This document shows, piece by piece, positions 1 through 13,659 of a stretch of 64,000 nt of DNA. This stretch comes from Ruminococcaceae bacterium BL-6 (GTDB lineage: Bacteria > Bacillota > Clostridia > Oscillospirales > Acutalibacteraceae), in contig LR778135.1 of assembly GCA_902810075.1 (NCBI GenBank), positions 930,001-994,000 on the forward strand, written 5' to 3'. Each line of letters starts with the position of its first letter. Within the stretch, counting starts at the first letter, position 1. The translations under genes and the position numbers were made by a program. The notes under the pieces are model-generated. The model did not search any database. It worked only from the letters and a program-made list of their open reading frames with translations, and was not told where the DNA came from.

Positions 1-125
1 CCGCAGTGGGACGGAAGGCGTCGGCCCGGCGCGTCCCTAGAAGGTGGCATCGAGCCGCGGCGGCAACGCCCGGCCAAGATAGATGGCTGTTCACGACAGA
101 ACTCGGCTTACAGGCCTGCTCGTAC
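1..125 (+). ncRNA. rnpB: RNase P RNA, 3' end (gene starts before the window)
   Basis: Catalytic RNA that matures the 5' ends of tRNAs. The stretch from about 70 to 112 reads like the conserved 3' end of bacterial A-type RNase P RNA: GGCCAAGATAGATGGCTG, then CACGACAGAA, then CTCGGCTTACAGGCCTG. It aligns by eye with the E. coli 3' end (GGCCTAGATGAATGACTG, CACGACAGAACCCGGCTTA). Only the last ~125 bases are in the window. The 3' segment doubles as the left attachment site of the adjacent element, which leaves the RNA apparently complete. The exact 3' end is inferred. Confidence 0.85.
92..122 (+). repeat. attL: rnpB 3'-end attachment site, left copy
   Basis: This segment matches 11966-11996 at 26 of 31 positions. 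The identical core CTCGGCTTACAGGCCTG lies at 102-118 here and 11976-11992 there. It coincides with the conserved 3' end of rnpB, and a tyrosine recombinase gene lies beside the other copy, which is the usual layout of an element integrated into the 3' end of an RNA gene. The crossover is inferred to fall inside the 17-bp core. Confidence 0.8.
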
Positions 126-135
126 TTTTTTTACC

Positions 136-163
136 AAAAACCGCTTTACAGGCGGTTTTTTTG
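136..163 (+). terminator. Rho-independent terminator after rnpB at attL
   Basis: Stem AAAAACCGC (136-144) pairs with GCGGTTTTT (152-160), followed by further T residues. It would end rnpB transcription on the element side, replacing the chromosomal terminator that now lies beyond attR (12013-12037). Confidence 0.75.
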
Positions 164-186
164 CTGCCTAAGAAACTTTAAACAGT

Positions 187-208
187 TGGTTATCGTGCGG
201 CTTTTTCA
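187..208 (+). repeat. Internal direct repeat, left copy (candidate integrase arm site)
   Basis: A 22-bp sequence starting TGGTTATCGTGCGG and ending CTTTTTCA is identical at 187-208 and 11854-11875, in the same orientation, just inside each end of the element. The positions suit arm-type integrase binding sites (inference). An unrelated ancestral duplication is the alternative. Confidence 0.6.
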
Positions 209-326
209 GGCCTATCGCGTTCTGCCATATTTCGTTACCTTATTTTATATACAAAAAACCTGTGCTTCGATCATAGCATAGCGCCTTTTAAAATGCAAGA
301 GGTCCATAACCTTTCTCAATTTGCGG

Positions 327-355
327 TTGACAGAAGCGACGACAGAATATATGAT
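327..355 (+). promoter_or_regulatory. Sigma-A promoter for the 68-aa gene
   Basis: TTGACA (327-332), a 17-bp spacer and TATGAT (350-355) lie 44 bp before the ATG at 399. This also supports the inner start rather than an upstream one overlapping the promoter. Confidence 0.7.
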
Positions 356-398
356 AGAAATAAGTGGATTGGAAATTGATTTATTGGAGGTCATCAAT

Positions 399-605
399 AT
401 GTCGAGAGGCCGCAAACCAGCGAAACCGATTGCAGAACAAATCAAGGATAAAGAGGAACTCGTCAAGAAGCTGCAGAGCGAAATAACTAAAATGAAAAAG
501 CAGGAAGAAGAAAAAGAGCTTCGGGAAATCAAAACCGAAATTAAAGAATCAGGCGTTGACCTGAAAGAAATAATTGCCGCCATTCAAGCGAAAAAGTCGT
601 CCTGA
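399..605 (+). CDS. Small charged coiled-coil protein with AT-hook-like N-terminus
   Basis: 68 residues. The start ATG at 399 is preceded by a good ribosome-binding site (GGAGG, 386-390) and lies downstream of a strong promoter. The N-terminus MSRGRKPAKP resembles an AT-hook (basic, G-R-K-P), and the remainder is rich in K/E with heptad-like spacing, so a small DNA-associated or oligomerising protein is plausible. It is the first gene inside attL. No family is recognised and the function is unknown. Confidence 0.6.
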   Translation: MSRGRKPAKPIAEQIKDKEELVKKLQSEITKMKKQEEEKELREIKTEIKESGVDLKEIIAAIQAKKSS

Positions 606-642
606 GCGGGCGGCTTTTTTTCATATGGTTTGGATAGGGGGA

Positions 643-1515
643 CTACTCCCGCAAGATGTATTTTGCGGCTTTCTCGGCGGCGCTGGAAGCCGCTACGAGC
701 CAATGGGGGTTGTCCTGCAGGGCTGTAATCCAGCCGCGCATATAGGCCACGCTGTTCGATTCCTCGGCGGGGGTTAAAATTCCAAGGCTGGCACAGAGCA
801 TAGACGCGCCCATTTCGGCGGTGAGTTCTTCTTTGCTATATTCTTTGCCGCCGCAGAAGTCGTGTTTCAAACGGTCAAGGCGATTTTTTGCTCCCGTGCT
901 GTGCACGGCTTCATGGAAAGCCGTCCCATAAAATGCTTCCGCGCATTTGAACGTATTTGCCATGGGAAGCATAATCGTGTCGGCGAGGGGATTATAACAG
1001 GCTCTGTCGCCGTTTTGGTATATCACCTGAATTTTTTCACGACCGATATAATTTTCAAAGACGGCTTGCGCCTTTGCGTTTGGCTGAAAATCGAATTCAG
1101 GCTTTACTTTTTCGCTTTGCGGTAATCCGTCGATATCTTCCGCATGAAAGACATTATAATATTTCAGGTAAGGCACTTTTTGCGTCTTGGTTTCGAGTTC
1201 CCCGTTTTGATTTTTAACCTTTTTTTCGCGCTCGCAAAAATTGAAATAGACCACGATCTCCTGATGACAACCCTTGCGGATTTTCAGCTTTGGATTATGC
1301 TTTTGCAAATCGCAGAATTGATTCCACGTTAAATATTCCCCACTGCCCAAAAGCGGAACATTGATTCCCGAATAGGTACGCTTCGTCACATAATTTCGGG
1401 GTGCGTCCGCATACACCCATGGTTTTTCCCACGGCAATGGCTCTTTGTTTTTTATCGCTGCTTCAATTTTAGATATCATGCGCCGCGCTATCATTTGATG
1501 GATTTTATTTGTCAT
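643..1515 (-). CDS. ardC: ArdC-family antirestriction protein (zincin-like)
   Basis: 290 residues. The N-terminal half (about 1-130) resembles the ArdC ssDNA-binding domain, with the run PWEKPW near residue 29 and YSGIN near 48. The C-terminal half carries the metallopeptidase-like motif HEAVH at residues 201-205, with a downstream EELTAEMGA that supplies the expected third ligand region. Family knowledge: ArdC proteins on plasmids and ICEs help incoming DNA escape restriction. RBS AGAGAGGACG precedes the ATG. It lies within the rnpB element next to the Rep-like gene, as in other mobile elements. Confidence 0.85.
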   Translation of the reverse strand: MTNKIHQMIARRMISKIEAAIKNKEPLPWEKPWVYADAPRNYVTKRTYSGINVPLLGSGEYLTWNQFCDLQKHNPKLKIRKGCHQEIVVYFNFCEREKKVKNQNGELETKTQKVPYLKYYNVFHAEDIDGLPQSEKVKPEFDFQPNAKAQAVFENYIGREKIQVIYQNGDRACYNPLADTIMLPMANTFKCAEAFYGTAFHEAVHSTGAKNRLDRLKHDFCGGKEYSKEELTAEMGASMLCASLGILTPAEESNSVAYMRGWITALQDNPHWLVAASSAAEKAAKYILRE

Positions 1516-1613
1516 TTTTATCGTCCTCTCTGTACTTATTTTTTATCATTCTACAATAACAGACAAAAAAATATAACAATAAAAATATTTAGTTTAGAAT
1601 GACTTTTTTTCAA

Positions 1614-3134
1614 CTAAGACACCGCTTCATTTAACTGCTTGGAATAAATCGAAACGAGCGCTTTGGAAACGCCTATCAATCGGGCAATTTCAGCTTTTGA
1701 TTTACCGCAATTTAAATATTTCCGTATTTGAATCAGCTTGTCCGACTTCGCGGCTTGGCGTTTGGTGAGGCCATCGGAATTACGGCGTTGCTTTTTCCGC
1801 TTCGCGTAGTCGCGTTTTCTCTTTTCATCAGGTGTAATAAGAGTTTTATAGGCTGGCATTTCGTCGGGGGAAATTTTCAGCAATTCCATGATCTTTTGAT
1901 TGCTATAGCGATAATGGCCGAATTCTCCATTTTGGGAAATACGCTCGGAAACGGCGTCCAGATGAATCCTTTTCAACTGTGAAATCGGTAGAGGAGCTTT
2001 TAGCTGATTGTTTATTTCTTTCATGTAGAAGTATGTACTGTCGCGGTCTTTTATTTCCGAGAGGCAAGTGGCGAGAATCAAAAAGAAATTTGCCCGATAC
2101 CCTTCGATATCATAGTTCCGATTTTTCAACCATTTGATTAAATCCTGCTTTCTTGCCTGCGCTAATGTTTTCAGTGTCATCGTTGCGGAAAGCACTCGTG
2201 GAACAGAATCAATCGATTTTGATTTCAGCCTGATGGGCGGATCATCGTTGTTTCCGATTTTTTTGATATTCAGCAGTTGTGTTAATTCCTCAATTCCGTA
2301 TCTTCGCAACGGGGATTTTTTAACGGAGTCGAAATCCAGTATTTTTGAGAATCTCCCCGTTTTGGAATTAATGACTTGGGGAAGCCGCAGGACGCGCGAT
2401 AAATCCGTACAACTCGGATCGCTTCCATATGCTTTCGTCATCGTGATAAGCGCGTTCATGGATTCCTTATAAACGGCCGTGTTACGGGTTTGCCTGAAAA
2501 GCAAAAGCGGCTTGTCTAAGAGGAATACAACATAGAGGCCGTGTCCTGAATCGATCGCGTATGCTGGTTCTAATTTTTTTGGCTGAAAGACATTTTTTTG
2601 CAGTTCAGCGTAAACGGTTTCGGCGCTTTTCTTTTCGAGTGCTGGAATATTGTAATAATCAATATCCAATATCAGACATTCCGCTGAATACGCCAAAAAA
2701 GACGCGCGGCTATAGTTTGACTGAAAATTACAGTTGGTGCAGTATAAATCCGTTTTGCGCCCAAGCGTTAATAGCCTGTATAATTTGTATGGTGTCAGTT
2801 GTCCAGTGCCGAAAGAACATTGTGCGGTCTGTTCTCCGACTTCGGTTAGATATTCAGGCTGGTATTTCATAAAGAAAATAATATTTTTATCCTGCTGTGT
2901 ATGCGTATTTTCCAAATGAAAAGCGAGTTCTTCCGTCAGGGCCTCATAATCGTATAGTTTGGATTTTCGGTCTTTGCATACTGCTATTTTTCTGAGCCGC
3001 TTTTTATAATTAATAATGGAATAGAATTCCTGTACATCAGGCGGCATCTTTGCTTTTCTGATATATAGAATATTATCATGTTTATAAAAATCCCGCAGTT
3101 TGTTATATTCTTTTACACATGCTGGTGTTTCCAT
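1614..3134 (-). CDS. Primase-like (AEP fold) replication protein with C-terminal HTH
   Basis: 506 residues. Three stretches fit an archaeo-eukaryotic-primase core: LILDIDYYN (acidic pair D157/D159), SGHGLYVVFLL (about 196-206) and DLSRVLRLPQVINSKTG (about 244-260). Two cysteines, CTNC, lie at about 132-135. The C-terminus (about 465-502, AKSDKLIQIRKYLNCGKSKA onward) reads as a helix-turn-helix. Proteins with this plan initiate or prime replication of plasmids and integrative elements, so this is the likely replication protein here. RBS GAGGAGGG precedes the start. The exact biochemical role is inferred, since no helicase domain is visible. Confidence 0.7.
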   Translation of the reverse strand: METPACVKEYNKLRDFYKHDNILYIRKAKMPPDVQEFYSIINYKKRLRKIAVCKDRKSKLYDYEALTEELAFHLENTHTQQDKNIIFFMKYQPEYLTEVGEQTAQCSFGTGQLTPYKLYRLLTLGRKTDLYCTNCNFQSNYSRASFLAYSAECLILDIDYYNIPALEKKSAETVYAELQKNVFQPKKLEPAYAIDSGHGLYVVFLLDKPLLLFRQTRNTAVYKESMNALITMTKAYGSDPSCTDLSRVLRLPQVINSKTGRFSKILDFDSVKKSPLRRYGIEELTQLLNIKKIGNNDDPPIRLKSKSIDSVPRVLSATMTLKTLAQARKQDLIKWLKNRNYDIEGYRANFFLILATCLSEIKDRDSTYFYMKEINNQLKAPLPISQLKRIHLDAVSERISQNGEFGHYRYSNQKIMELLKISPDEMPAYKTLITPDEKRKRDYAKRKKQRRNSDGLTKRQAAKSDKLIQIRKYLNCGKSKAEIARLIGVSKALVSIYSKQLNEAVS

Positions 3135-3250
3135 TCAGCAACCCTCCTCGGTCGTTTTTATAAGGTTACTGTATGGAAATAAGAATGATAGAAAAAAAGT
3201 GTTTTATCTTCGGAAGGCAAGGGTGGGATTTTGTTTAACAGCAGCGCTTT

Positions 3251-3320
3251 GTTGGAATGTCGGAAATCTTTGATTTTCAATATTTCAACAAAAAGCCGCC
3301 GTCTGTTTTCAGACGGCGGC
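3251..3320. other. Tandem hairpins upstream of the Rep-like gene
   Basis: First hairpin: 18-nt arms at 3251-3268 and 3272-3289, differing only by transitions (14 Watson-Crick pairs, 3 G-U if transcribed rightward). Second hairpin: GCCGCCGTCTG (3295-3305) with CAGACGGCGGC (3310-3320). Read on the minus strand, the second is followed by a T run and should act as a terminator for the tnpB-side genes. The first may be part of an origin or of the Rep leader. The 3321-3444 stretch holds one further hairpin (3396-3419). Confidence 0.55.
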
Positions 3321-3395
3321 CCTGTTTTCGATTCCCTGTTATTTTTAGGAACCAGTCACTTTCCTTCCCCTTGTATTGATTTTGTACATAGAGGC

Positions 3396-3419
3396 TAAGA
3401 ACCCATGACGGGGTTCTTA
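3396..3419. other. 9-bp hairpin, possible right end of the TnpB element
   Basis: TAAGAACCC (3396-3404) pairs perfectly with GGGTTCTTA (3411-3419) around a 6-nt loop. Subterminal hairpins of this sort mark the ends of IS200/IS605-type elements, and it lies downstream of tnpB. It is, however, about 570 bp from the tnpB stop with one or two genes in between, so the assignment is tentative. Confidence 0.35.
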
Positions 3420-3444
3420 CTCATTATGATATGCGGCAATAAGA

Positions 3445-3582
3445 TTATAATAACTCGGAATCGTCTAAGTCCTGTAAATCATCATCTTCGGACGGCGGGT
3501 CTCTGACACAAAAACGATGGACTAATTCGTCGAGTTCCTTTTCATTGATTTTTAAATCTTCATCTGTCAATTCGTCACACAA
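3445..3582 (-). CDS. Possible 45-aa acidic protein
   Basis: An open frame starting with TTG at 3582, overlapping the stop of the upstream gene by a few bases, encodes a very acidic peptide ending DDDLQDLDDSELL. The overlap suggests translational coupling to the 128-aa gene. The start codon is weak, no family is recognised, and it may not be real. Confidence 0.35.
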   Translation of the reverse strand: MCDELTDEDLKINEKELDELVHRFCVRDPPSEDDDLQDLDDSELL

Positions 3583-3961
3583 AGGCTTTCACTTCCTTCT
3601 TTAATTGAGACTTTTTTGTTTCTTCCTCCAACCATGAAGTATCGAATGAGCAAGCGAAACAGAGCTTTGTCAGGTCGTCCGTATCATTCTTATTTTGCTT
3701 TCTGTCAAGCAATAGTTTTAGCTGACTTATTCTTTCCTGCAACATAACCGCCATTGGAGTGATCGATTTATTCAAAATGATTTCGTCGGTAAATTTTGCT
3801 TTTAACGTCAATATCTGTTCGCTTATTTTAGGAACATTTATTTTTTGCCTGTCAAGGACATATTCCCATATCATGTTATCGATTTTATCAAAGTAATCCA
3901 AATCGATCGGATAATTCAGCAGCATATATTCAAATACTCGGTTGAGACTTTTTCTGTCCAT
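3575..3961 (-). CDS. Hypothetical protein, 128 aa, co-oriented with tnpB
   Basis: Starts 24 bp after the tnpB stop with RBS GAGGTG, so it is probably co-transcribed with tnpB. The sequence is predicted mostly helical and charged, with a hydrophobic N-terminal part (FEYMLLNYPIDLDYFDKID) and a lysine-rich C-terminus. There are two cysteines (CFAC) near residue 101. No family is recognised. It occupies the place where a TnpB guide-RNA scaffold and element end would normally be expected. Confidence 0.6.
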   Translation of the reverse strand: MDRKSLNRVFEYMLLNYPIDLDYFDKIDNMIWEYVLDRQKINVPKISEQILTLKAKFTDEIILNKSITPMAVMLQERISQLKLLLDRKQNKNDTDDLTKLCFACSFDTSWLEEETKKSQLKKEVKAFV

Positions 3962-3985
3962 CTATATAAAAGCACCTCGCTTTGT

Positions 3986-5257
3986 TTATTTATTTGGGAA
4001 GCTGGGCGCGGTTTCAGAGCTTAGAATATGAATTCTCTGTGGTTGCGCCAGACCTCTACTGCTTAAACGGATCATATCAGGATCCGTTATGGCATTACAT
4101 TTTCTGAGAATATTGAAAGCGCCGTTGATATCCGCATTGATTTTAATTTTATCTTTCGTAATATATAACCCTCTGTAACGCCTGTGCCCGCTGAATCTCT
4201 GTTCTGTCGGTGTGACGTATGCTGGTATTTGATCCAAGTCAATGGCAGATGCCTGACTGGTAAAAGATTCGTCGGTTTTGAGAAACAGGATTCCGTTTTG
4301 ATGGCATTTTGTTTTCAGCGCTTTTACAAATACAGCGTATGGAAAATAGGAAAATATTTGATTGTTTTGATGTCCAAGCTCAAATGTTTGGAAATGAATT
4401 CCCCAGCCGACGACAATTTTGTGAACATGCTGATTGATGCAGTAGTTGATGATATATTTAACGGATTTATTGAGATAGTCTCTGATTCTATATGCCGTTT
4501 TACGCTGTAATGACGCCTGCCTTACAGTACCCTTGCCATGACTGTGAAATTTTTTTTCGTATTTACAATATCCCTGAATGATACTTTTTAAACGCCTGCC
4601 GTCCACAATAAAACTGTCCCCAGCATTTGTAACGCAGGTACAAAAGTTGCTAACGCCCAAATCGATTCCCAACACTTTATGTACATTCAAATTCGGATTT
4701 TCAATGACCTGTAATGGATATTCAATAATTAACTCCCAGTTTCGGAAATTGCAAGATGTATGCAGATGGATACGCATAATCTGATGATGCGCGTATGCAC
4801 TTGGGAGCCGTATTTTCAAAACGGGTGTTTGATTGGTAGCGGGGAGAAGAAGGAAACCATTTTCGATTTCAGGGTTCTTGAGAAGGACGGGGAAAATGAT
4901 TTTACTCTTACAGGGCGGTTTGATTTTATTCAAATTCTTTTTATCCAGAAGTTGTTTGGATTTATCGGTTCTGTACTGAGTGATTCTGAAATATTTTTTG
5001 CAGTTTGACAGGGCTTCAATGATAACTGCGGAATATTTCCGACCGATGGCTTGGTACTCTTTTCTGCTTTTCAGGTTTTCCGTCAATTCATCGTAGGAAG
5101 GAAGCGCATGAAAGCGTTTGTAAGAATCACTGATCTCCATGATAGAAGCATTGTAGAGATCGCGGGAAAGTTGCAGCAGGCATACAAGATTTCTTTTCAT
5201 ATCGGGAGTTGGGTGTTTCAGATGAATTTTTGCGCTGCCATATAAAATAAGCATCAC
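3986..5257 (-). CDS. tnpB: TnpB-family RNA-guided nuclease homologue, zinc-ribbon-less type
   Basis: 423 residues. RuvC-like acidic residues are present: D199 in GIDLGVSNF, E330 in LKTDESFTSQAS and D376 in INADINGAFNILRK. The usual zinc-ribbon CxxC pairs between E and the last D are absent. In their place is FSGHRRYRGLY (about 355-365), typical of one TnpB subgroup. Family members are encoded by IS200/IS605 elements and cut DNA under guidance of an RNA from the element end. No TnpA transposase is adjacent. The start is GTG 5257 or ATG 5254, behind AAGAAGG. The catalytic triad looks intact, so activity is possible. Confidence 0.85.
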   Translation of the reverse strand: MMLILYGSAKIHLKHPTPDMKRNLVCLLQLSRDLYNASIMEISDSYKRFHALPSYDELTENLKSRKEYQAIGRKYSAVIIEALSNCKKYFRITQYRTDKSKQLLDKKNLNKIKPPCKSKIIFPVLLKNPEIENGFLLLPATNQTPVLKIRLPSAYAHHQIMRIHLHTSCNFRNWELIIEYPLQVIENPNLNVHKVLGIDLGVSNFCTCVTNAGDSFIVDGRRLKSIIQGYCKYEKKFHSHGKGTVRQASLQRKTAYRIRDYLNKSVKYIINYCINQHVHKIVVGWGIHFQTFELGHQNNQIFSYFPYAVFVKALKTKCHQNGILFLKTDESFTSQASAIDLDQIPAYVTPTEQRFSGHRRYRGLYITKDKIKINADINGAFNILRKCNAITDPDMIRLSSRGLAQPQRIHILSSETAPSFPNK

Positions 5258-5329
5258 CTTCTTTAGTTAATCGTACAAAATTTAAGTTTTTATATTCATA
5301 AAAAGTGTTTGATGCCGATATAAAAAACA

Positions 5330-5350
5330 GGTGCTGATAAAATCAGCACC
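5330..5350 (-). terminator. Terminator downstream of the RHH gene
   Basis: GGTGCTGAT (5330-5338) and ATCAGCACC (5342-5350) form a 9-bp stem. On the minus strand it is followed by TGTTTTTTAT, so it ends transcription of the gene at 5373-5573 before tnpB. Confidence 0.75.
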
Positions 5351-5372
5351 GAGAGGATCACCGAGCAGCGGA

Positions 5373-5573
5373 CTATTTTTCTTCAAAGGAAACGTGCTCA
5401 AGCGCATATTCGCAGAGCGTGTTGATAATGTCGTTCCTGCTTCGGTTCACCCGACTTGCGGCAGCGTCTATCCGCGCGATTAAATCCTCGTCCATACGGC
5501 AGCTTACCACGACCTGACGCTCGGCCTTGGTCTGCTTGGGGCGTAAAATCAGTTTGTCATCTTCCATATCCAT
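5373..5573 (-). CDS. Ribbon-helix-helix (CopG/Arc-like) DNA-binding protein
   Basis: 66 residues. The region from about 19 to 60 (QVVVSCRMDEDLIARIDAAA, then RSRNDIINTLCEYALEHV) has the beta strand plus two helices of a ribbon-helix-helix domain. Such small proteins on mobile elements repress their own promoter or serve as copy-number or relaxosome accessory factors. An inverted repeat with 8-bp arms lies just upstream of the start and is a plausible operator. A terminator follows the gene. Confidence 0.75.
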   Translation of the reverse strand: MDMEDDKLILRPKQTKAERQVVVSCRMDEDLIARIDAAASRVNRSRNDIINTLCEYALEHVSFEEK

Positions 5574-5578
5574 ATCAC

Positions 5579-5606
5579 CATTACAATTGTATTAGATTTT
5601 GTAATG
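5579..5606. promoter_or_regulatory. Inverted repeat, candidate operator of the RHH gene
   Basis: CATTACAA (5579-5586) and TTGTAATG (5599-5606) are perfect inverted arms separated by 12 bp, directly in front of the RHH start. Autoregulation by the RHH protein is inferred from position only. Confidence 0.5.
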
Positions 5607-5654
5607 ATGGTATAGATTCAAAAAATGTAGTCATAAAGAGAATACAAAAATGTA

Positions 5655-5683
5655 TTGACATTTTCTGTCTGCCATTCTATACT
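5655..5683 (+). promoter_or_regulatory. Consensus-like sigma-A promoter
   Basis: TTGACA (5655-5660), a 17-bp spacer and TATACT (5678-5683). It points at the two very small ORFs at 5719 and 5875 and diverges from the RHH gene. Confidence 0.75.
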
Positions 5684-5718
5684 GAGATGTGGAAACGGCA
5701 GGAGGGAATCACCAGATA

Positions 5719-5859
5719 TTGAACGAAAGGGGGCTTTCGGGCCGTGATTTGCCGTCGCCTGCGGTTGTCCTTGGAAATCTGGAAGCAGTGAAAAGATGTT
5801 TTTATAGATGGGGGTATGAAGCCCTTTATGATGTAATCCGTTTATGTCAATCCAGATGA
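5719..5859 (+). CDS. Possible 46-aa protein
   Basis: A frame starting TTG at 5719 (RBS GGAGGG at 5701-5706) encodes a peptide ending EALYDVIRLCQSR. It is the first ORF behind the strong promoter at 5655-5683 and is followed 15 bp later by another small gene. The non-ATG start and lack of a known family keep confidence modest. Confidence 0.4.
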   Translation: MNERGLSGRDLPSPAVVLGNLEAVKRCFYRWGYEALYDVIRLCQSR

Positions 5860-5874
5860 AAGGAGGATTTAGGC

Positions 5875-6030
5875 ATGGGTGCTGATGACGATTTAGAGAG
5901 CATAGCCGCCCGCAGGACGGCGGAGTATGAAGAAAGGCTGCAGCAGGAGCAGCAGGAGCAGGAAGAGGCCGCAGAGGCAGAGAGGCGTTACGAAGAGGAT
6001 ATCATCTTGTATGATAATCAAGATCACTGA
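5875..6030 (+). CDS. 51-aa glutamine/glutamate-rich small protein
   Basis: ATG at 5875 is preceded by a near-perfect RBS (AAAGGAGGA). The product is strongly charged, with a central run of Q and E residues (RLQQEQQEQEEAAEAERRY), and is very probably one long helix or coiled coil. It sits in the transcript from the 5655 promoter. No family is recognised. Confidence 0.6.
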   Translation: MGADDDLESIAARRTAEYEERLQQEQQEQEEAAEAERRYEEDIILYDNQDH

Positions 6031-6073
6031 ATCTCTGTAAAGCGGTGTTTTCATGAGGGTTCAGTCGATCATA

Positions 6074-6102
6074 TTGCATGTTGTTGGAAATTGTTGTATA
6101 AT
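6074..6102 (+). promoter_or_regulatory. Promoter of the secreted-protein gene
   Basis: TTGCAT (6074-6079), a 17-bp spacer and TATAAT (6097-6102), 45 bp before the ATG at 6148. Confidence 0.75.
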
Positions 6103-6147
6103 ATATTGTCAGGAAACGGGAATAAACTGATTTAGGAGGGTATTGCA

Positions 6148-7095
6148 ATGGGACGAATGAAGAAAATAGTCAGTTTTGCATTGTCGGCTGCCCTGTTATC
6201 GTCGGTAGCAATTACAGGCGCTTCCGCGGCGGGTGCAGCCTATGTTAAATCCGACACGACTACAAATTTGACCATGCAGCAGGGGGCCGTTTATCAGTTC
6301 AAACTGACACCCGTCAACACGAAACAGGCCGTGCTTATTTCAGGCAATGGAAAAAGTATTCAGGTGCTCTCTTCTAAAAAAACAGGGAACGATTATTTCG
6401 TGACAATCAAGGCAATCGGTGCAAATGGGCAGAGCACGGGTATCTATATCGGCCCTACTCAAAAAACGGCGAAAAGGCAATTAATCGTTACAATAGGAGC
6501 TTCTCAAAACAGTTTATCAGGCGCATTACCAACGACTGTTTCTTCAATTTCTTCGGTTCCTTCTTCTCCTAAACCATCAACTCCAACAAAAGTTGGCTCT
6601 TATGGTATCATAGAAGCTAAAGATTCAAGGGTTCATACTGAAGTTGGAGTATTGTTCCCACTCCAGACAACCTATAACTCGGCTTCTACGTATACTGAGC
6701 ATAGAGATAATATCAATTTAAATTTAGTAGGATGCGATATAATTGGCAGTGGTTTTGTTAAGAGTGGAGACGGTAGTAATGCATTTGTTAGATTCATCCC
6801 GAAAAATGGAAAGCTTGCACTGGAAATAAGCGCATGGCGTAAATCTAAGGATGACAACAGTGATGCTGCTATTCTTAACGGAGCGTTGTCTGCCATGGTC
6901 TATCTAGCAAGGTCAAAACCTGCTGGAGAAGCTTTGTGGGCATGGCATGATGCTTTTAGCATCAATGGTGGACACGTGGATACAAAAAGCTACGGGTTCA
7001 TTGATAACCCTGATGGGACAATAACCTATAAGGGAACAAGCAATAAAATAAAAATTGAATTTAATCCGTCTGATATTACGTTTTTATTTTATTAA
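6148..7095 (+). CDS. Secreted protein of unknown function
   Basis: 315 residues with a clear Sec signal peptide: MGRMKK, a hydrophobic stretch, and ASA-A near residue 28. Residues about 30-115 are T/V-rich and look like a beta-sandwich. A Ser/Pro linker follows (about 128-150), then a roughly 165-residue C-terminal domain with no family I recognise, with aromatic motifs such as ALWAWHDAF. It has its own strong promoter, an RBS (AGGAGGG) and a terminator, so it is a self-contained cargo unit of the element. Cell-surface interaction or export to the medium is inferred; there is no anchor motif. Confidence 0.7.
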   Translation: MGRMKKIVSFALSAALLSSVAITGASAAGAAYVKSDTTTNLTMQQGAVYQFKLTPVNTKQAVLISGNGKSIQVLSSKKTGNDYFVTIKAIGANGQSTGIYIGPTQKTAKRQLIVTIGASQNSLSGALPTTVSSISSVPSSPKPSTPTKVGSYGIIEAKDSRVHTEVGVLFPLQTTYNSASTYTEHRDNINLNLVGCDIIGSGFVKSGDGSNAFVRFIPKNGKLALEISAWRKSKDDNSDAAILNGALSAMVYLARSKPAGEALWAWHDAFSINGGHVDTKSYGFIDNPDGTITYKGTSNKIKIEFNPSDITFLFY

Positions 7096-7158
7096 ATTCA
7101 ATAAAAAAACTAAGGTGCTTCCAGATTGTTATGAGGCTTCATAAAATCAATTCAAAAA

Positions 7159-7186
7159 AGCCGACATTTAAAATGGCGGCTTTTTT
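7159..7186 (+). terminator. Terminator after the secreted-protein gene
   Basis: AGCCGACAT and ATGGCGGCT pair (one internal mismatch) and are followed by TTTTTT. A-rich sequence on the other side would let it serve the convergent gene at 7201 as well. Confidence 0.7.
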
Positions 7187-7200
7187 ATTTTGGGAAGCGA

Positions 7201-8187
7201 TTAAATAATATCCTTCACTGGAAAGCCTGAAAACAGCTTCTCTTCTGAATTAAAAAAGCGAAAGCGAATCAATTCTTTTAGCCGCTCTTCCGTCATTGTG
7301 CGGAATTCCGAATTTTGTTTTAGCCTTTTTAATATTTTATGCTCAAAAACGCGATCCCGTTTTTGGTGGGAATAAATCGTCAGAATGATTTCCGCCTTAT
7401 GACTGCTGTTGTTGGCATCATATAAAAGTTCGCTGAAAAATGAATAGGCGTCCGCAATCCTCCTGATCAGTAAATCCATTTCGATATAAGTGGTATAGAG
7501 ATAATCGACATAAACCCTGAAAACAGTTGTATCGTTATTGGCGATGATCTTAGCGCCTGAGATATAGAAGTTTTTGCAGGCGTAGCGATATAGGTTTCTT
7601 TCATTTGCAATGTGGTTCTTGACACGATGCAAATGATTTTTTGAGATGGAACGTTCGACATGCCGCCTCATGGTTTCCGCTTCGTAATTTAAACCTGTTA
7701 AATCCCAGTGGCAGGGGGTCAGAGCTTGAATATAGTGGTTTACAACGTTTAAATGCGCCTGCCCGTTCGGCAAAAAGGAAATGGCACTCGTCTTTTGTAT
7801 TCGGCTTCTCAGCCACTTTGGGGAGTATCTGTAACATTGCTCATCGTCGAGGTATTTTTCCATTAAAAGCGCCGACTGTTTGAGCCTGCTGCTGGTTGAC
7901 AGCCCGTTGAAACATAAACCGAAATAGTTGTATACGGCGCCTCGCGGGTAAATGATATAATTGCGTGAAATTTTAATTTTATGAACCAACTCCAAATCCA
8001 CCCAGCGCCTGACGATGGAGCGGAATACTCGATGGTAGCGGGCGCTGTTCTGATTCAGCCACCTGTTCAGTTGCTGCATGTGGACAGCGCCCGCCAAACC
8101 GAATAGAATCACATAAAAGACATCTTCATACTGCTGGATATAAAAGCGTTTCAGCATATGACGTTCCTCGGTTCTGCAATCGTACAT
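7201..8187 (-). CDS. Winged-helix protein of unknown function, 328 aa
   Basis: The N-terminal about 75 residues look like a winged-helix domain: a helix run to QQLNRWLN, a recognition-helix-like RYHRVFRSIVRRWVDLELV, then a basic wing KISRNYIIYPRG. The remaining 250 residues are mixed helical and basic and match no family I recognise. It starts 14 bp after the upstream gene (8202-8798), with RBS GGAGTGAG, so the two form an operon. The partnership with a replication-relaxation-like protein suggests a role in element maintenance (inference). Confidence 0.6.
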   Translation of the reverse strand: MYDCRTEERHMLKRFYIQQYEDVFYVILFGLAGAVHMQQLNRWLNQNSARYHRVFRSIVRRWVDLELVHKIKISRNYIIYPRGAVYNYFGLCFNGLSTSSRLKQSALLMEKYLDDEQCYRYSPKWLRSRIQKTSAISFLPNGQAHLNVVNHYIQALTPCHWDLTGLNYEAETMRRHVERSISKNHLHRVKNHIANERNLYRYACKNFYISGAKIIANNDTTVFRVYVDYLYTTYIEMDLLIRRIADAYSFFSELLYDANNSSHKAEIILTIYSHQKRDRVFEHKILKRLKQNSEFRTMTEERLKELIRFRFFNSEEKLFSGFPVKDII

Positions 8188-8201
8188 GGTCGCTCACTCC
8201 T

Positions 8202-8798
8202 TTAAACACGATAAAATTCAATCGGCATTGACATATAATCGCTATAAGTTTGCTTTGCCGAAATCTCTTCCTGACTGTAATTCACGGACACGATTTCAAT
8301 TAAAGTCACTTCCCCATTACAGAGGACTGCCCCGTCTGGCGGAGAAAGGGTATGCGTGCGGAGAGCGTCCAGCAATTCGCGCTCATCTTCCCGCCCCTGT
8401 ATGGTATCAAGAAATAATTGCTGCAAATCCCGTTCCGTCAGCCACTGCGCGTTCTCGTTTTTGGTTTCGGACAAATAGATTTCCGATAACCTGATATTGT
8501 GGGCTGGCGCGGAGGACGAATGATAAGGGGCCGTATTCCGCATTTTGGAGATATGGCACCTGATATATTGTCTGCCGCTCTTTGTGAGCGCGTAGACGGG
8601 GTGCGCGGAATCGCCGACATGCTTGGGTATGTAATTCTGTTTTACGACAATCCCCTGCTTGATATAGGATTTCAGACGGTTCTTTGTGACGATGCTGGTG
8701 ATCTGCTGCTGGCTCAAATGCTGGCAGCAGTAGAAAGCGGACAGGATCTTCTGATCCCTTGCGTTTAATTGTTTGATGTATGATTTTCTGCGCGGCAT
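8202..8798 (-). CDS. Replication-relaxation-like protein
   Basis: 198 residues from ATG 8798, chosen because AGAGGGGAAATCCC lies just before it. The longer frame would run into the palindrome cluster. The N-terminus (NARDQKILSAFYCCQHLSQQ, then a short helix-turn-helix and LTKSGRQYI) fits the winged-helix of the replication-relaxation family. The C-terminal part has PDGAVLCNGEVTLIEI and a later K, spacing that recalls a PD-(D/E)xK-like core. Family members are encoded beside replication or mobilisation genes of Gram-positive elements. Gene order and the adjacent palindromes support that role. Confidence 0.65.
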   Translation of the reverse strand: MPRRKSYIKQLNARDQKILSAFYCCQHLSQQQITSIVTKNRLKSYIKQGIVVKQNYIPKHVGDSAHPVYALTKSGRQYIRCHISKMRNTAPYHSSSAPAHNIRLSEIYLSETKNENAQWLTERDLQQLFLDTIQGREDERELLDALRTHTLSPPDGAVLCNGEVTLIEIVSVNYSQEEISAKQTYSDYMSMPIEFYRV

Positions 8799-8826
8799 GG
8801 GATTTCCCCTCTTTTGCAGGACTGAG

Positions 8827-8991
8827 CGCTCGGAAAATGCCTTGGCATTTTTCGTAAAAGCCGCCTGCGGCTTTAGGCTCCGCCAGACCGAGCGATGAAC
8901 TCTATGAATTGAACAATTGGAACAATTGTGGTCGGAACGACAATTCATAGAGCGCAGCCATGCAGTGCATGGTTCGGCGCGAGGTCTGGCG
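8827..8991. other. Cluster of nested palindromes, candidate origin (oriV/oriT) or operator
   Basis: Six perfect inverted repeats lie in 165 bp. CGCTCGG/CCGAGCG span 8827-8894. AAAATGCC/GGCATTTT is at 8834-8851 and AAAGCCGC/GCGGCTTT at 8857-8874. CGCCAGACC (8881) pairs with GGTCTGGCG (8983). CTCTATGAATTG (8900) pairs with CAATTCATAGAG (8941). CCATGCA/TGCATGG is at 8958-8972. Between the long arms, AACAATTG occurs twice (8912, 8921). The cluster lies immediately upstream of the replication-relaxation-like gene. An origin function is inferred. Confidence 0.55.
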
Positions 8992-9169
8992 CATGACTGA
9001 TGCAGCCTATATTGATTGTTTTTCTTTATCGTAAGCGCGTCGGAAGCGGAATATCACGGAAAAATGTCTGAGGGGAAGGGCAGGAAGCATCTGCAAGGTA
9101 TCCTGATAAGCCCCAGATTGCGGTGCGGCGGCGGGGATAAGCAAGCGGAGAAAGAAGGACGACGGGCAG

Positions 9170-9226
9170 CTCCGACGCGCAGGCGCGCGTCGGAGAAGCG
9201 TGTCGGGCAGACGTGCCGTCTGCCCG
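9170..9226. other. Two adjacent GC-rich 10-bp hairpins
   Basis: CTCCGACGCG (9170-9179) pairs with CGCGTCGGAG (9186-9195), and CGGGCAGACG (9204-9213) pairs with CGTCTGCCCG (9217-9226). No T run follows either, so they are not simple terminators. They lie in the 8799-9616 spacer, which otherwise shows no credible gene. Origin or nick-region structures are possible. Confidence 0.5.
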
Positions 9227-9386
9227 GCGCGCTTATTGGGCATGGAGGGGGAGGGCGGACGTTCCGCTCACCGACGGTTTAAAATACGGTAGAGCAAAAA
9301 AATTTTCTGAAAAATAAGACAAAAAAATTCCGCAAGATATTGTATTCTCTGCGGGCACTCGGCCATTGATATTGAGAATTTCATAT

Positions 9387-9415
9387 TTCAAACACTGCAT
9401 AGAACAGTGTTTGAA
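9387..9415. promoter_or_regulatory. 11-bp inverted repeat upstream of the recombinase genes
   Basis: TTCAAACACTG (9387-9397) and CAGTGTTTGAA (9405-9415) are perfect inverted arms around 7 bp. A TATAAT lies at 9438-9443. An operator of the 9617-10811 transcription unit is the simplest reading. Confidence 0.4.
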
Positions 9416-9616
9416 TGAAATTTTGAAAAAAATATGTTATAATAAAATTGTCATGAAAAACAAATCGATTTGCTGTTATTTATGATTGAACGGTTTATTG
9501 AAATCAGACGATTTGAAAGGCGGTGGTATTTAGACTGAAACAGCTATGGCATTGATGCGAGATACAACATGGAAGATAACGCTTTACCTGTTTATATAAG
9601 TGGAGTTCATTAAAAA

Positions 9617-9799
9617 ATGCGCTCAATTTATGCTTTCGGTTTTAATTGGAATCGAACGGATCGAAGCCAGAAAATCAAGAAAATAAGACAGACAAAAAAG
9701 GCGGAACAGGCACAGAAACCTGTTCCAACTGCTCGCGCCAGAAAAGGAAAAATTATGTTTGGAGATTATGAAATGGCGGTGAAAATCATCTTAAATTAA
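9617..9799 (+). CDS. Possible 60-aa basic protein
   Basis: ATG at 9617 lies 12 bp after GGAG. The product is very basic (KIKKIRQTKKAEQAQK), and the frame ends 16 bp before the recombinase start, so it could be a leader gene in the same transcript. No family is recognised. Weak RBS spacing keeps this tentative. Confidence 0.35.
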   Translation: MRSIYAFGFNWNRTDRSQKIKKIRQTKKAEQAQKPVPTARARKGKIMFGDYEMAVKIILN

Positions 9800-9815
9800 T
9801 AGGAAGGAAATCAAT

Positions 9816-10811
9816 ATGTGCAACAGAATCACACTAAAGCAGGCGGTTGAAAAATTCCCTGATTATATATTATTGGAAGGAAACACAGAATCAACAATAA
9901 AAGCATATTCTTGCGATATAAAGCAATTTTACAGTTATATGCGCGCGAAGTATCCCAACATTGTTTATATAGACAGCTTAAAAAGAAATCATATTTCCGA
10001 CTATTTACTGAGTATATTAAAAAAGGTAAAAGCTAAAAAATGCAGTTGTTACACTTATGATAGAAAAGCGGATTCCCTGATCGTCTTTTGTAAATATATA
10101 TTTGAAAATGGATATTCGTCCGACAACCTTTTAAAATCATATAAACGGAAAAGAATGAAGAATCGCTATTTTGCCGATTTCAAGAGCGATTTTCAGCCTT
10201 ACATTTTTACAGAAGAAGAACTGTCAAAGCTCATAAACACGATTATGGACAGCAACGATCAAAACAAAGACCGTGACTTGGCCATTTTTATGATGCTGAT
10301 TCAACTTGGTATCAGACGAAGCACCTTGCTGGAGGCCTGTTGGGAAGATGTCAGTTTTGAGAAAAAAGAAATGACCCTGCATCATGTAAAAGACCAAATT
10401 TCGACAAGGGTTAAAATCACGCAGGAGCTTTCCGATGTGTTGGAAAATTATCAATTTATTTCGGGCAGGAAAACGGGGAAAATCTTCATCAGTAATGAAG
10501 GAAATCCCCTGTCGAAAAGCGCGTACAACGACGTGATCAGGAAGTATCTCAAAAAAATCGGCGCTTATCAAAAAGGAGCGACAGGGCACTCTTTCAGGCA
10601 TACGTTTATCACCAATGCCGTCAGAAAAAATATTAATGCCGCTCGAATTATGCGTTATACGGGGCATCGGGATTTCAGTTCATTAAAACCATATCTACAT
10701 CTTGCTCCCGATGATTTAAACGATGTCTGCGTCGCGGTCTATTCGCCGTTATTAGTTGACGCACTCGAAAAATCCAAAATGCGGCAGCGTTCCATGTCTA
10801 AAAAAATTTGA
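9816..10811 (+). CDS. Tyrosine recombinase/integrase family protein
   Basis: 331 residues with RBS AGGAAGGAAAT. The N-terminal SAM-like core-binding domain covers about 5-115. The catalytic domain shows the Arg in LGIRRSTLLEA (about 166), HSFRHTFI (about 250), TGHRDFSS and the probable nucleophile Tyr in LKPYLHL near residue 290. It differs clearly from the second recombinase at 10866. Possible roles are resolution of element multimers, inversion, or a second integration activity. The terminator at 10829-10855 lies between the two convergent recombinase genes. Confidence 0.85.
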   Translation: MCNRITLKQAVEKFPDYILLEGNTESTIKAYSCDIKQFYSYMRAKYPNIVYIDSLKRNHISDYLLSILKKVKAKKCSCYTYDRKADSLIVFCKYIFENGYSSDNLLKSYKRKRMKNRYFADFKSDFQPYIFTEEELSKLINTIMDSNDQNKDRDLAIFMMLIQLGIRRSTLLEACWEDVSFEKKEMTLHHVKDQISTRVKITQELSDVLENYQFISGRKTGKIFISNEGNPLSKSAYNDVIRKYLKKIGAYQKGATGHSFRHTFITNAVRKNINAARIMRYTGHRDFSSLKPYLHLAPDDLNDVCVAVYSPLLVDALEKSKMRQRSMSKKI

Positions 10812-10828
10812 TTTTGAAAATAAAAAAA

Positions 10829-10855
10829 AGCCGTCCTGCTGAGAACGGCTTTTTT
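10829..10855. terminator. Bidirectional terminator between the recombinase genes
   Basis: AGCCGT (10829-10834) and ACGGCT (10845-10850), flanked by an A run on the left and a T run on the right, so it can serve both convergent genes. Confidence 0.75.
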
Positions 10856-10865
10856 ATATAGGATC

Positions 10866-11777
10866 TTATACCGATATAATCTTCGGGAACTTTTTGACCT
10901 CCTCTTTCATGTGAGCGTTTGTCAGGTGAGTATATATTTTTGTGCTGTTCAGGTCGCGGTGGCCCAGCATTTTCTGAATCGCTAAAAGGTCTACGCCGTT
11001 CTCATAAAGAAGCGTAGCGAAAGAATGACGGCATTTATGGATGGTGTAGTGTTTGTTCCCTAATCCGCATTTTATCAGGTATCGTTTAAATAGGGTTTGA
11101 AAAGCTGTTTTTGAAAGCCTTTCATGACAATCCGACAGTAAAATTGGCTCGTCCATTTTTGGATGGCGCTCATTGTAATAGTCCAATAAAATCATTGCCA
11201 ACGGTTCCATTAAAGGAATTTCACGGTCTTTTCTTCCTTTGCCCTGTCGAATGTGGACGATTTCCTCCCTGAAATCGATATCGCCCCAATTGAGATTTAA
11301 GACTTCGGATTTTCGTGCGCCCGTGTAAATTAACAGCCCCATCATGGCACGGTCGCGGTTTATGTGGGAATGAAAACGGGCGTATTTTTGGGGGGCTTCA
11401 AGGAGCTTGCGCAGATCATTTTCGCTGATAAAAATAGGTAAGCGTTCTTCCAGCCGTGGGGCGTGGATTGGCAGCATGGGGTTTTTATCAATATACTCCA
11501 TCTCCAACGAAAATTTAAAAAAGCTGGACAGGGAGTGTATTTTCCTTCGTACCGTCCCGTTAGAGTATTCCTTTCCGATTTTCAGGTAATTGACGTACTT
11601 CCTTAGGTCGCGTGTCGTAATTGTCTGCAGCCGAGGTTCAATGCCTTGGAGTTGCAAAAACTTTTGAAATGTCTTATAATCTGTGCTGTAACTTGAGATA
11701 GTAGATTCGCTCGCGTCTTTTTCCGCCCGCATGTTGTTTAGAAATTCCCTGTAAACAGTTTTCAGTTCGTCGTCCAT
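10866..11777 (-). CDS. int: Tyrosine recombinase, element integrase (XerC/D-like)
   Basis: 303 residues from ATG 11777, chosen for its RBS (AGAAGGG). The open frame extends 59 codons further without a better site. Core-binding domain about 10-95; catalytic residues in TGARKSEVL (Arg), GKGRKDREI (Lys), HKCRHSFATLL (His-x-x-Arg), LGHRDLNST (His) and the Tyr of TKIYTHL. It ends reading away from attR and its start lies about 200 bp from the core repeat, the usual int-att layout, so it is the best candidate for integration and excision at rnpB. Confidence 0.9.
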   Translation of the reverse strand: MDDELKTVYREFLNNMRAEKDASESTISSYSTDYKTFQKFLQLQGIEPRLQTITTRDLRKYVNYLKIGKEYSNGTVRRKIHSLSSFFKFSLEMEYIDKNPMLPIHAPRLEERLPIFISENDLRKLLEAPQKYARFHSHINRDRAMMGLLIYTGARKSEVLNLNWGDIDFREEIVHIRQGKGRKDREIPLMEPLAMILLDYYNERHPKMDEPILLSDCHERLSKTAFQTLFKRYLIKCGLGNKHYTIHKCRHSFATLLYENGVDLLAIQKMLGHRDLNSTKIYTHLTNAHMKEEVKKFPKIISV

Positions 11778-11853
11778 CAAAAGCCCTTCTTTTCGGGGAA
11801 TTTTAATCCAAGTTACACACGCGCCCGCCGCTAAAAAAAATAGCCTAAAAAAG

Positions 11854-11875
11854 TGGTTATCGTGCGGCTTTTTCA
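11854..11875 (+). repeat. Internal direct repeat, right copy (candidate integrase arm site)
   Basis: Identical over 22 bp to 187-208, in the same orientation, between the int start and attR. See the left copy for the interpretation. Confidence 0.6.
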
Positions 11876-11965
11876 AAGAGATAAACGGCTTTTCGTGCTT
11901 GCTTGGGATTAAAAACCCAGTAAATTCAGGTGTTTTGGCAGTCGAATAGGGCAACTGAAATTTGG

Positions 11966-11996
11966 CACGACCTACCTCGGCTTACAGGCCTGGTCG
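11966..11996 (+). repeat. attR: right copy of the rnpB attachment site
   Basis: Carries the 17-bp core CTCGGCTTACAGGCCTG (11976-11992) and the flanking CACGAC and TCG shared with attL. To its right the GC-rich chromosome resumes with a terminator that fits as the original rnpB terminator. Confidence 0.8.
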
Positions 11997-12012
11997 CATC
12001 AATCGCAACGAA

Positions 12013-12037
12013 AGCCCGCTGATTCAGCGGGCTTTTT
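12013..12037 (+). terminator. Likely original rnpB terminator
   Basis: AGCCCGCTG (12013-12021) pairs with CAGCGGGCT (12025-12033), followed by TTTTT. No gene reads into it from the element on this strand, so before integration it presumably ended rnpB. Confidence 0.75.
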
Positions 12038-12045
12038 GCTGTTAT

Positions 12046-12102: not shown

Positions 12103-13659
12103 TTAATTTTCGGGCTCCGTCAGCGGCACGCGGACCCCGAACAGCTCAATCTCAGCGACTTGCTTTGCATCGACCGGCTTTGCGAGACCGCCCGAAAACT
12201 CGAACGCTCCGTCGGCTGAAACGCCGCCGCCGATCTTAATGCCCGCCTCCACCTTGGAGCCGTCTTTCAGAATGAGCTTGATGCCGCTCAGGGGAAGCTT
12301 CTTTTCCGTGTCCCTGCACGTCCCCGAGAAAGAGAGCGACAGGTCGGAAACCGTCACGCTTTTGACCGTAACGTACAGACCGTCCGGCGTCGTGGCGTTT
12401 TGGTCCGGATGGAACGTCCGCGCCGTATCGGTAAAGGAAAGCGTGAACGGGATATTCCATTTGCCGGAGCGGCGCACGACGGTTTCCGTCCGGTAGCTGC
12501 GGGCGATCCGGTAGCGGTCCAGGTCGTTCACCGTGCAGCCGCCGGTCAGGCGGTTGTCATCCATCGTCGGGTCCAGCGCGAGGACGATCCTCCCGCCGTT
12601 AAAGCCAAGCTTGCTTTCGGTATCTTTTTTTACCGCTTTCCGGTAGGCTTCCTCGCTGTCGAATCCTACATGCTCGACGCCGTTTCCCGTGATGATCCCG
12701 CTTTCAAAAGGAACCGGGTTTCCCGTATCCGCATTCTGGAAGCACAGCTTTTCCAGCCCGGATTTTTCCCGGCTGTTCCCGGGCGTGATGCTGAGGTAGA
12801 GCAGATCCCGCTGGCATCCGTACTCCCCGGTCTTGTGGAACCCGATGTTGTCGATGTAGGAATCGGGGTACAGGCTGGAAAATTTGACGCGCTGTTTCCC
12901 CGCGGGGATGGTCCAGCTGGGCGCGATTAGCGACGGGTCTGCATAGACGTCGAAAAGTCCCGTCCTGATAAAATCCTTCGGCGGCTCCGGCGTCATGGAC
13001 CGGTACAGCTCCCCGAGATTCCGGAACAGGAATCCGGCGTCTTCGCAGGAATCCACCGCGTCGGTAAAGTCTTTGAGCGACAAAGTCGCCTGCCGGCCGT
13101 TCAGGTCGGAAAAATCACCTTCCGCAATCGCCTCAAATTGGGCGGTGTCCGGCACGGAGGCGTCATCCGTGCGGAAAGCCGTGCATTCGATTTGTTTTTC
13201 TCCCACGCTGAGATTCGTTTCGGCAAATTCCTGTTGCTGAGACCTGCGGTAAGCGGAGGACTCCTGAAGCGGTGTGGAATCCGTGCTTTTGACGGTAAAG
13301 ACGATGTAAACCCTCTGATTGTCGCAGACCGTCCTGTTCACGGTGACCGCAAGGCCGTTTGCCTCGGCCGATTTTTGAATGTTTTTGCCCGCCGCGTTTT
13401 CCACCGCCGCGGGAATCGACGAATCGATCCTTTTCTGATAGGCCGGTCCCGAAAACTTTGCGAACTGCTGAATCCCGTAGGCGACGGCCGTGACGGAACC
13501 GAGCGCAATCAGGGCGCAGGCCGGGATCAGAATGCCCCAGTGGATTTTTCTGCGGCGGCGCGGCGCCTGCCGCATCGCCTTTCTGGTCCTGTCGAACAGA
13601 TCATTTGGAACGGGCCGGAGATTCACCTGTGCCCGGTATTCGTTTCGAAAATTCTTCAT
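12103..13659 (-). CDS. DUF4179-type membrane protein, probable anti-sigma factor
   Basis: 518 residues. A cytoplasmic N-terminus of about 40 residues is rich in Arg (RQAPRRRRKIH). One membrane span follows (about 42-62, GILIPACALIALGSVTAVAY), then a large extracellular part starting with the FSGPAY region typical of DUF4179 proteins. It overlaps the end of the ECF sigma gene by 59 bp and has its own RBS inside that gene, so the pair is translationally coupled. Family context supports membrane sequestration of the sigma factor until an envelope signal arrives. The signal is unknown. Confidence 0.75.
   Translation of the reverse strand: MKNFRNEYRAQVNLRPVPNDLFDRTRKAMRQAPRRRRKIHWGILIPACALIALGSVTAVAYGIQQFAKFSGPAYQKRIDSSIPAAVENAAGKNIQKSAEANGLAVTVNRTVCDNQRVYIVFTVKSTDSTPLQESSAYRRSQQQEFAETNLSVGEKQIECTAFRTDDASVPDTAQFEAIAEGDFSDLNGRQATLSLKDFTDAVDSCEDAGFLFRNLGELYRSMTPEPPKDFIRTGLFDVYADPSLIAPSWTIPAGKQRVKFSSLYPDSYIDNIGFHKTGEYGCQRDLLYLSITPGNSREKSGLEKLCFQNADTGNPVPFESGIITGNGVEHVGFDSEEAYRKAVKKDTESKLGFNGGRIVLALDPTMDDNRLTGGCTVNDLDRYRIARSYRTETVVRRSGKWNIPFTLSFTDTARTFHPDQNATTPDGLYVTVKSVTVSDLSLSFSGTCRDTEKKLPLSGIKLILKDGSKVEAGIKIGGGVSADGAFEFSGGLAKPVDAKQVAEIELFGVRVPLTEPEN

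Follow-up and report, generated by a model that had tools for sequence, protein, structure and literature searches.

We analysed a 64,000-nucleotide stretch of the genome of Ruminococcaceae bacterium BL-6 (contig LR778135.1, positions 930,001 to 994,000 of the forward strand; hereafter, the window). It begins within rnpB, the gene for the RNase P RNA, and continues into an 11.9-kb element bounded by a pair of putative attachment sites. A covariance search of the whole genome with RF00010 found one rnpB (G000:C1:929777-930126), which matched positions 1-367 of the 367 in the model with 260.5 bits and an E value of 1.1e-85. The gene encodes a class A bacterial RNase P RNA and is full length, extending from window position -223 to a 3' end at position 126. 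An Rfam scan limited to the window matched no family because the window start cuts rnpB. A 31-bp imperfect repeat, 87% identical between its two copies, lies at the 3' end of rnpB (attL) and again at the far end of the element (attR), and both copies contain the identical 17-bp core CTCGGCTTACAGGCCTG (Table 1). By simple arithmetic, about 0.004 exact 17-mer pairs would be expected by chance in 12 kb. The two sites are direct repeats, and the target gene is complete on one side. The target of integration is rnpB, neither a tRNA nor a tmRNA gene.

The last nucleotides of rnpB are replaced by CTCGTACT, which the element brings together with a terminator-like hairpin. This left-end hairpin, followed by a run of T, folds at -11.8 kcal/mol (z -3.2), and a stronger T-run hairpin lies past attR (-22.9 kcal/mol, z -5.1). 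The RNA end is altered from GUCGCA, present in three same-genus relatives and past attR, to CUCGUACU in this genome. In the Rfam alignments, CUCGUACU pairs completely with CGAGC at the rnpB 5' end in helix P1. The three relatives have a mismatch at that P1 position, which is paired in the element-bearing rnpB. The initial annotation had placed a 17-bp core within a 31-bp imperfect repeat at the rnpB 3' end and beside an integrase gene, had expected a covariance model to find the rnpB 3' end at the window start, and had proposed that the left copy completes rnpB and brings a new terminator while the original one now lies past attR. All of this was borne out. Its description of the RNase P RNA as left intact holds for the completeness of the gene, and does not hold for the 3' end, which has changed.

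Table 1. Features of the rnpB-associated element and its immediate flanks, in window coordinates.
Feature	Position	Strand	Basis
rnpB, 3' part, ending in attL; gene start 224 bases before window base 1	1..126	+	RF00010 match
attL; identical core 102-118; crossover candidate TCGGCTTA at 103-110	92..122	+	
Element-supplied rnpB 3' tail CTCGTACT and terminator-like hairpin	119..166	+	Fold, Rfam alignment
Left copy of subterminal direct repeat TGGTTATCGTGCGGCTTTTTCA	187..208	+	
ArdC-like anti-restriction protein	643..1515	-	PF08401, PF18818, phrog_7245
Replication protein, RepB-primase-like	1614..3134	-	PF16793 below cut-off; phrog_9432, E 2.6e-18
TnpB family RNA-guided nuclease	3986..5257	-	NF040570 above NCBIfam cut-off
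Possible ribbon-helix-helix regulator	5373..5573	-	Weak match
Probable secreted protein amid mostly minus-strand genes	6148..7095	+	Signal-peptide-like start; no family match
Protein without family at E 0.01	7201..8187	-	Library searches
Possible replication-relaxation protein	8202..8948	-	PF13814, E 0.0035, below cut-off
Recombinase B (second tyrosine recombinase), with conserved catalytic residues	9816..10811	+	Homology, tree
Hairpin between convergent B and A genes	10820..10859	.	Fold
Recombinase A, rnpB-family tyrosine integrase, 304 aa	10866..11780	-	Homology, upstream core, catalytic residues
Right copy of subterminal direct repeat	11854..11875	+	
attR; identical core 11976-11992; crossover candidate 11977-11984	11966..11996	+	
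Original 3' end of rnpB (GTCGCA), displaced, with its terminator-like hairpin	11993..12042	+	GTCGCA also ends rnpB in three relatives; fold

Empty sites were present in all three same-genus genomes (G001-G003), in which rnpB reads ...gttcacgacagaa-CTCGGCTTACAGGCCTG-gtcgca. The sequence before the core is that found left of attL, and the gtcgca after it is that found right of attR. DNA upstream of rnpB matched these genomes at 77-91%, and no DNA similarity to the element was found in the 10-11.5 kb examined downstream of their rnpB. The check for an uninterrupted site in related genomes, suggested by the initial annotation, thus found rnpB running straight into GTCGCA in 3/3, with a right flank that is not shared.

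The gene of the tyrosine recombinase nearest to attR, recombinase A, starts some 200 bp away from the right core. The open reading frame of A (10866-11954) is most likely over-extended because homologues have about 303 amino acids (aa), and we take 10866-11780 as the protein. Among the best 120 of 2926 matches in a protein search, relatives of A extended down to about 41% identity, followed by XerC-like proteins at 34-39%. A-type loci were drawn from genome contigs and whole genomes. The rnpB core was found upstream of the integrase in each of the 18 further loci with readable upstream DNA (19/19 with our own); two members of the A family (L046, L050) and three loci outside it (L066, L068, L089) had too little upstream DNA. 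The distance from the core to the matched stretch was 157-275 bp in 17 of the further loci and 429 bp in the broken copy of G685. The 300-600 bp upstream of another 69 recombinases (64 from contig loci, five from the BL-6 genome, among them recombinase B) contained no core, and a core upstream of L092 was rejected as chance from its context. A pattern-free measure, in which the 600 bp upstream of the integrase were matched without gaps to the 3' region of the host rnpB, gave best scores of 13-112 in the 19 loci, our own included, and of at most 11 in 40 distant control recombinases. This match spanned CGGCTTA in 18/19; in the remaining one (G1008a), a terminator copy outscored the core.

In a quick tree, 16 of the 17 core-bearing rows fell in one group (support 90), with L047 outside; the chance row L092 was left out of this count, and L044 and L049 were too short. 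A second tree placed 14 of 17 A rows in one group at 100/97 and left three unresolved. The catalytic residues R-K-H-R-H-Y were kept across the family, apart from one R that is H in G048 and two ends that are cut, and every residue compared was kept in our own A. These comparisons confirm, at the level of sequence, an integrase family that appears to be aimed at rnpB and can be recognised by sequence, as the initial annotation had surmised. Broken reading frames were seen in the A-type integrases L044, L049 and L230, which are perhaps old or degrading rnpB elements, or sequencing errors. Among the matches listed, the best to A reached 34.3% in the phage collection and 35.4% in the plasmid collection. 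In viral contigs, L119 (46%) was close to A over its length; other full-length matches were at most 32%, with higher values only on short pieces.

In 11 of 18 genomes, rnpB and the integrase lay on one contig and in the sense expected for one element (our own, G041, G045, G048, G049, G671, G591, G797, G685, G1236 and G1008). The distance between the two was smallest in G048 (3.8 kb, locus L047) and reached about 50 kb in G049, or about 68 kb for an outer tandem element. Two tandem rnpB elements lie downstream of one rnpB at G1008:C1:3151500-3220324 (L406-L410, L242). The 3.8-kb element of Alicyclobacillus suci (L047, 9807-13576) has ends that share more than 100 bp and carries an alpha/beta hydrolase gene and transposase pieces. 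Genomes with a match above threshold for A numbered 1/394 in the order of BL-6 (the BL-6 genome itself) and 3/249, 4/297, 4/59 and 2/225 in the four orders of the relatives, counts that are lower bounds because the broken copy of G050 fell below threshold.

A target-first survey ran a degenerate core pattern over 398 genomes of the phylum. The pattern matched in 169 of them, with at least two matches in 10; a reversed control pattern gave two matches in 2 genomes (G1372, G1420). Pairs of rnpB attL and attR were found in eight of the 398 (our own, G1477, G1484, G1486, G1548, G1556, G1617 and G1635), and the context of the two other double-core genomes (G1543, G1550) marked them as chance. G1484 and G046 appear to be one and the same genome. 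An A-like recombinase (36-50%) was present in G1477, G1484 and G1548 and a fragment in G1486; G1617 and G1635 had other related recombinases (~30%), and G1556 had no A-like recombinase at threshold. Four of the eight att-pair genomes (G1486, G1556, G1617, G1635) belong to one family (f45), in which some recombinases are degraded or unlike. At least 120 viral stretches bear the 3' signature of rnpB; the 120 examined had neither a second core nor a close match to A or B, and one XerC/D-like match (34%) occurred in L383.

The 23 attL/attR pairs available for comparison, 17 located via the integrase and six via the pattern, agreed in 23/23 at NCGGCTTA and one further base. Leftward, at positions -1 to -6, agreement was 22, 13, 20, 10, 15 and 5 of 23; rightward, it was 17-22 of 23 for about 12 bases. 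The invariance of CGGCTTA across pairs is partly built in, because the att-locating pattern fixes it; the pairs are also not independent, several coming from one family. The pattern leaves free the preceding base, N, which was T in 19 pairs and A in four (G049, G671, G591, G050), and was equal within all 23, as expected if strand exchange requires identity. Since N varies between elements yet matches within pairs, the crossover probably lies within this near-universal rnpB segment. CGGCUUA falls in the conserved 3' region of the RNase P RNA in the Rfam alignments, and we take it to contribute to helix P4.

The initial annotation was right about the integrase beside attR and did not note a second tyrosine recombinase, B. 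Eleven elements carry B (our own, G040-G043, G046, G049, G591, G671, G797 and G1236), and all 11 B rows form one clade at 98/100, with a bootstrap that had not settled and genomes sampled for B at rnpB elements; G042_B is a long branch at about 20% identity. In eight elements, B is located 0.2-0.8 kb in from the rnpB end and reads toward rnpB in G040, G041, G591, G671 and G797 and away from it in G042, G046 and G049. A conserved B-attP-A operon in the circular form was rejected, as the direction of B varies between elements. B adjoins A in our own element and in G1236, and lies about 2 kb from A in G043. A piece of B was seen at a contig end in G044, and weak B-like stretches (24%) near the rnpB end in G1008b and G1635. 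The inner G1008 element (G1008a) contains three neighbouring tyrosine recombinases, a possible recombinase trio. The catalytic residues R, K, R, H and Y of B were kept, with gaps in G042 and G043, and the first histidine was variable. The identity matrices of A and B in the 11 elements correlated (Mantel r 0.66), to a degree reached in 16 of 5000 permutations. With one B as query, a protein search of limited reach gave 13 proteins, 10 of which were at 51% or above, and the best-scoring viral match to B was 26%.

A further feature of the ends is a 22-bp identical direct repeat, with its left copy 84 bp rightward of the crossover candidate in attL and its right copy 123 bp leftward of that in attR. 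Eighteen elements had both ends, and L047 was excluded for its duplicated end region. Direct matches from end to end in the remaining 17 gave a summed score of 206, against 120 +/- 6 for mismatched pairs, with 0/300 as high, in stretches that were picked after the repeats had been seen. Seven elements (L044, L048, G685, G1236, L049, L043, L045) scored only 6-8.

With the complete rnpB, the attL/attR pair, the three empty sites, the rnpB-core family of A and the B clade established by sequence comparison, the claim of the initial annotation that an 11.9-kb element is integrated at the rnpB 3' end is upheld. Related elements in other Firmicutes likewise occupy this site and give rnpB a new end. 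We consider it very likely that this is a mobile element that entered by site-specific recombination at that position. In the proposed course of events, A would exchange strands within TCGGCTTA, a conserved segment near the RNase P RNA 3' end. In the attP of the element, these bases would precede an rnpB-like P1 strand and a terminator, which would leave the host with a complete RNase P RNA. On excision, rnpB would be joined again to GTCGCA and to the terminator it had before. We are less sure of two parts of the proposal: that B has a role in integrating or excising the element, perhaps by binding one half-site while A binds the other, and that the subterminal direct repeats are accessory sites for protein binding.

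Several observations weigh against this proposal. In G001-G003, a search next to rnpB for the genes that follow attR came up empty, with a positive control that worked; for the first of these genes (12103-13659), G001 has a relative at 52% in another place, and G002 and G003 have none. Downstream synteny consequently failed as proof of the empty site, and that evidence is one-sided, consisting of the rnpB side plus six bases. A simple terminator scan listed neither end hairpin, and no excisionase was recognised in library searches of the window proteins. In six genomes (G040, G042, G043, G044, G046, G050), rnpB and the integrase are on different contigs, and in G993 (L232, L240) the rnpB end and the integrase end are 877 kb apart, perhaps as the result of an inversion that broke inside the element. 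The rnpB elements G045, G685, G1008a, G1477, G1486, G1556, G1617 and L047 showed no B, nor did the 1.5 kb seen of G050. Its absence from several rnpB elements indicates that B is not strictly required.

With roughly even chances, A alone integrates and B is a passenger, serving for example in dimer resolution or left from an older nested element, so that their pairing would be mechanistically meaningless. The rnpB elements that were found without B favour this, as do G1548, which has a different recombinase at the rnpB end, the varying place and direction of B, and the fact that A and B both keep most catalytic residues. The correlated identities of A and B argue the other way, although congruent divergence could stem from a shared history of the host lineages instead. 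The passenger explanation also has to accommodate a single B clade in 11 rnpB elements of unlike cargo, and its position directly within the attL end in eight. More tentatively, and with the odds somewhat against it, A and B may form a two-protein recombinase, each binding one of two unlike half-sites that flank the NCGGCTTA crossover, in the manner of XerC/XerD but borne by the element. Being often encoded at opposite ends, A and B would then flank attP in the circle, and a crossover within a part of the ribozyme that leaves hosts little room for change would allow a wide host range.

It is rather unlikely, but compatible with entry as described above, that the element is now a stranded remnant, integrated and no longer mobile. 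Three library searches, with ten window proteins scanned per library, revealed no clear relaxase, transfer or virion genes, the nearest to a transfer gene in the window being the PF13814 match below cut-off; a TnpB gene also lies inside the element. Against immobility stand the intact catalytic residues of its own A, both att sites and the direct repeats. Elements in relatives carry other cargo: prophage genes (portal, capsid, terminase) in G041, a conjugative coupling protein of the type IV secretion system kind in G591, BREX genes in G049 and type I restriction-modification genes in G1236. That the second core is a duplicated scrap of rnpB beside an unrelated integrase is extremely improbable. 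The shortness of the core (17 bp) speaks for it, but the explanation is contradicted by the same layout in 19 integrase loci, the direct repeats, the tandem elements and the crossover base that matches within each pair. Integration at the rnpB 3' end by an A-type recombinase remains the reading that we prefer.

These findings would add the RNase P RNA to the essential RNA genes that serve as docking sites for mobile DNA. A near-invariant ribozyme segment at the crossover candidate would explain one integrase family in hosts from Clostridia to Alicyclobacillus. Because integration edits the RNase P RNA 3' end, effects on an essential enzyme become testable, and the A and B clades make it possible to test whether a mobile element can bring along an XerCD-like pair of its own. 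A-type integrases could also be tools for insertion at a conserved site. No description of rnpB as an attachment site was found in the literature searched, which had partial coverage and included few subscription papers, so that absence from print is not established.

Known systems resemble the rnpB elements in part. Islander-type islands in tRNA and tmRNA genes (PMC4383910) likewise combine a tyrosine integrase with an RNA-gene target that is restored, leaving a displaced fragment. Unlike those islands, the elements described here target the RNase P RNA, have their crossover candidate in a conserved ribozyme segment and often carry a second recombinase clade. The dusA-targeting integrases (PMC4482086) are likewise defined by one non-tRNA target gene and occur in prophages and islands; there, a protein gene is entered at its 5' end, whereas here an RNA gene is entered at its 3' end. 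A and B are similar to XerC/XerD in having about 300 aa with SAM-like and catalytic domains. Among solved chains, XerD (1a0p, E 3.7e-33) comes closest to A, and the scores of A stay below the NCBIfam equivalog cut-offs (220.1 vs. 329.6 for XerD, 214.9 vs. 335.15 for XerC). Unlike XerC/XerD, both proteins are encoded by the element, with A beside its own att site. Recombinase-in-trio (RIT) elements also carry several tyrosine recombinases in one element, with their genes as one run of three; the rnpB elements differ in having two recombinase genes, usually at opposite ends.

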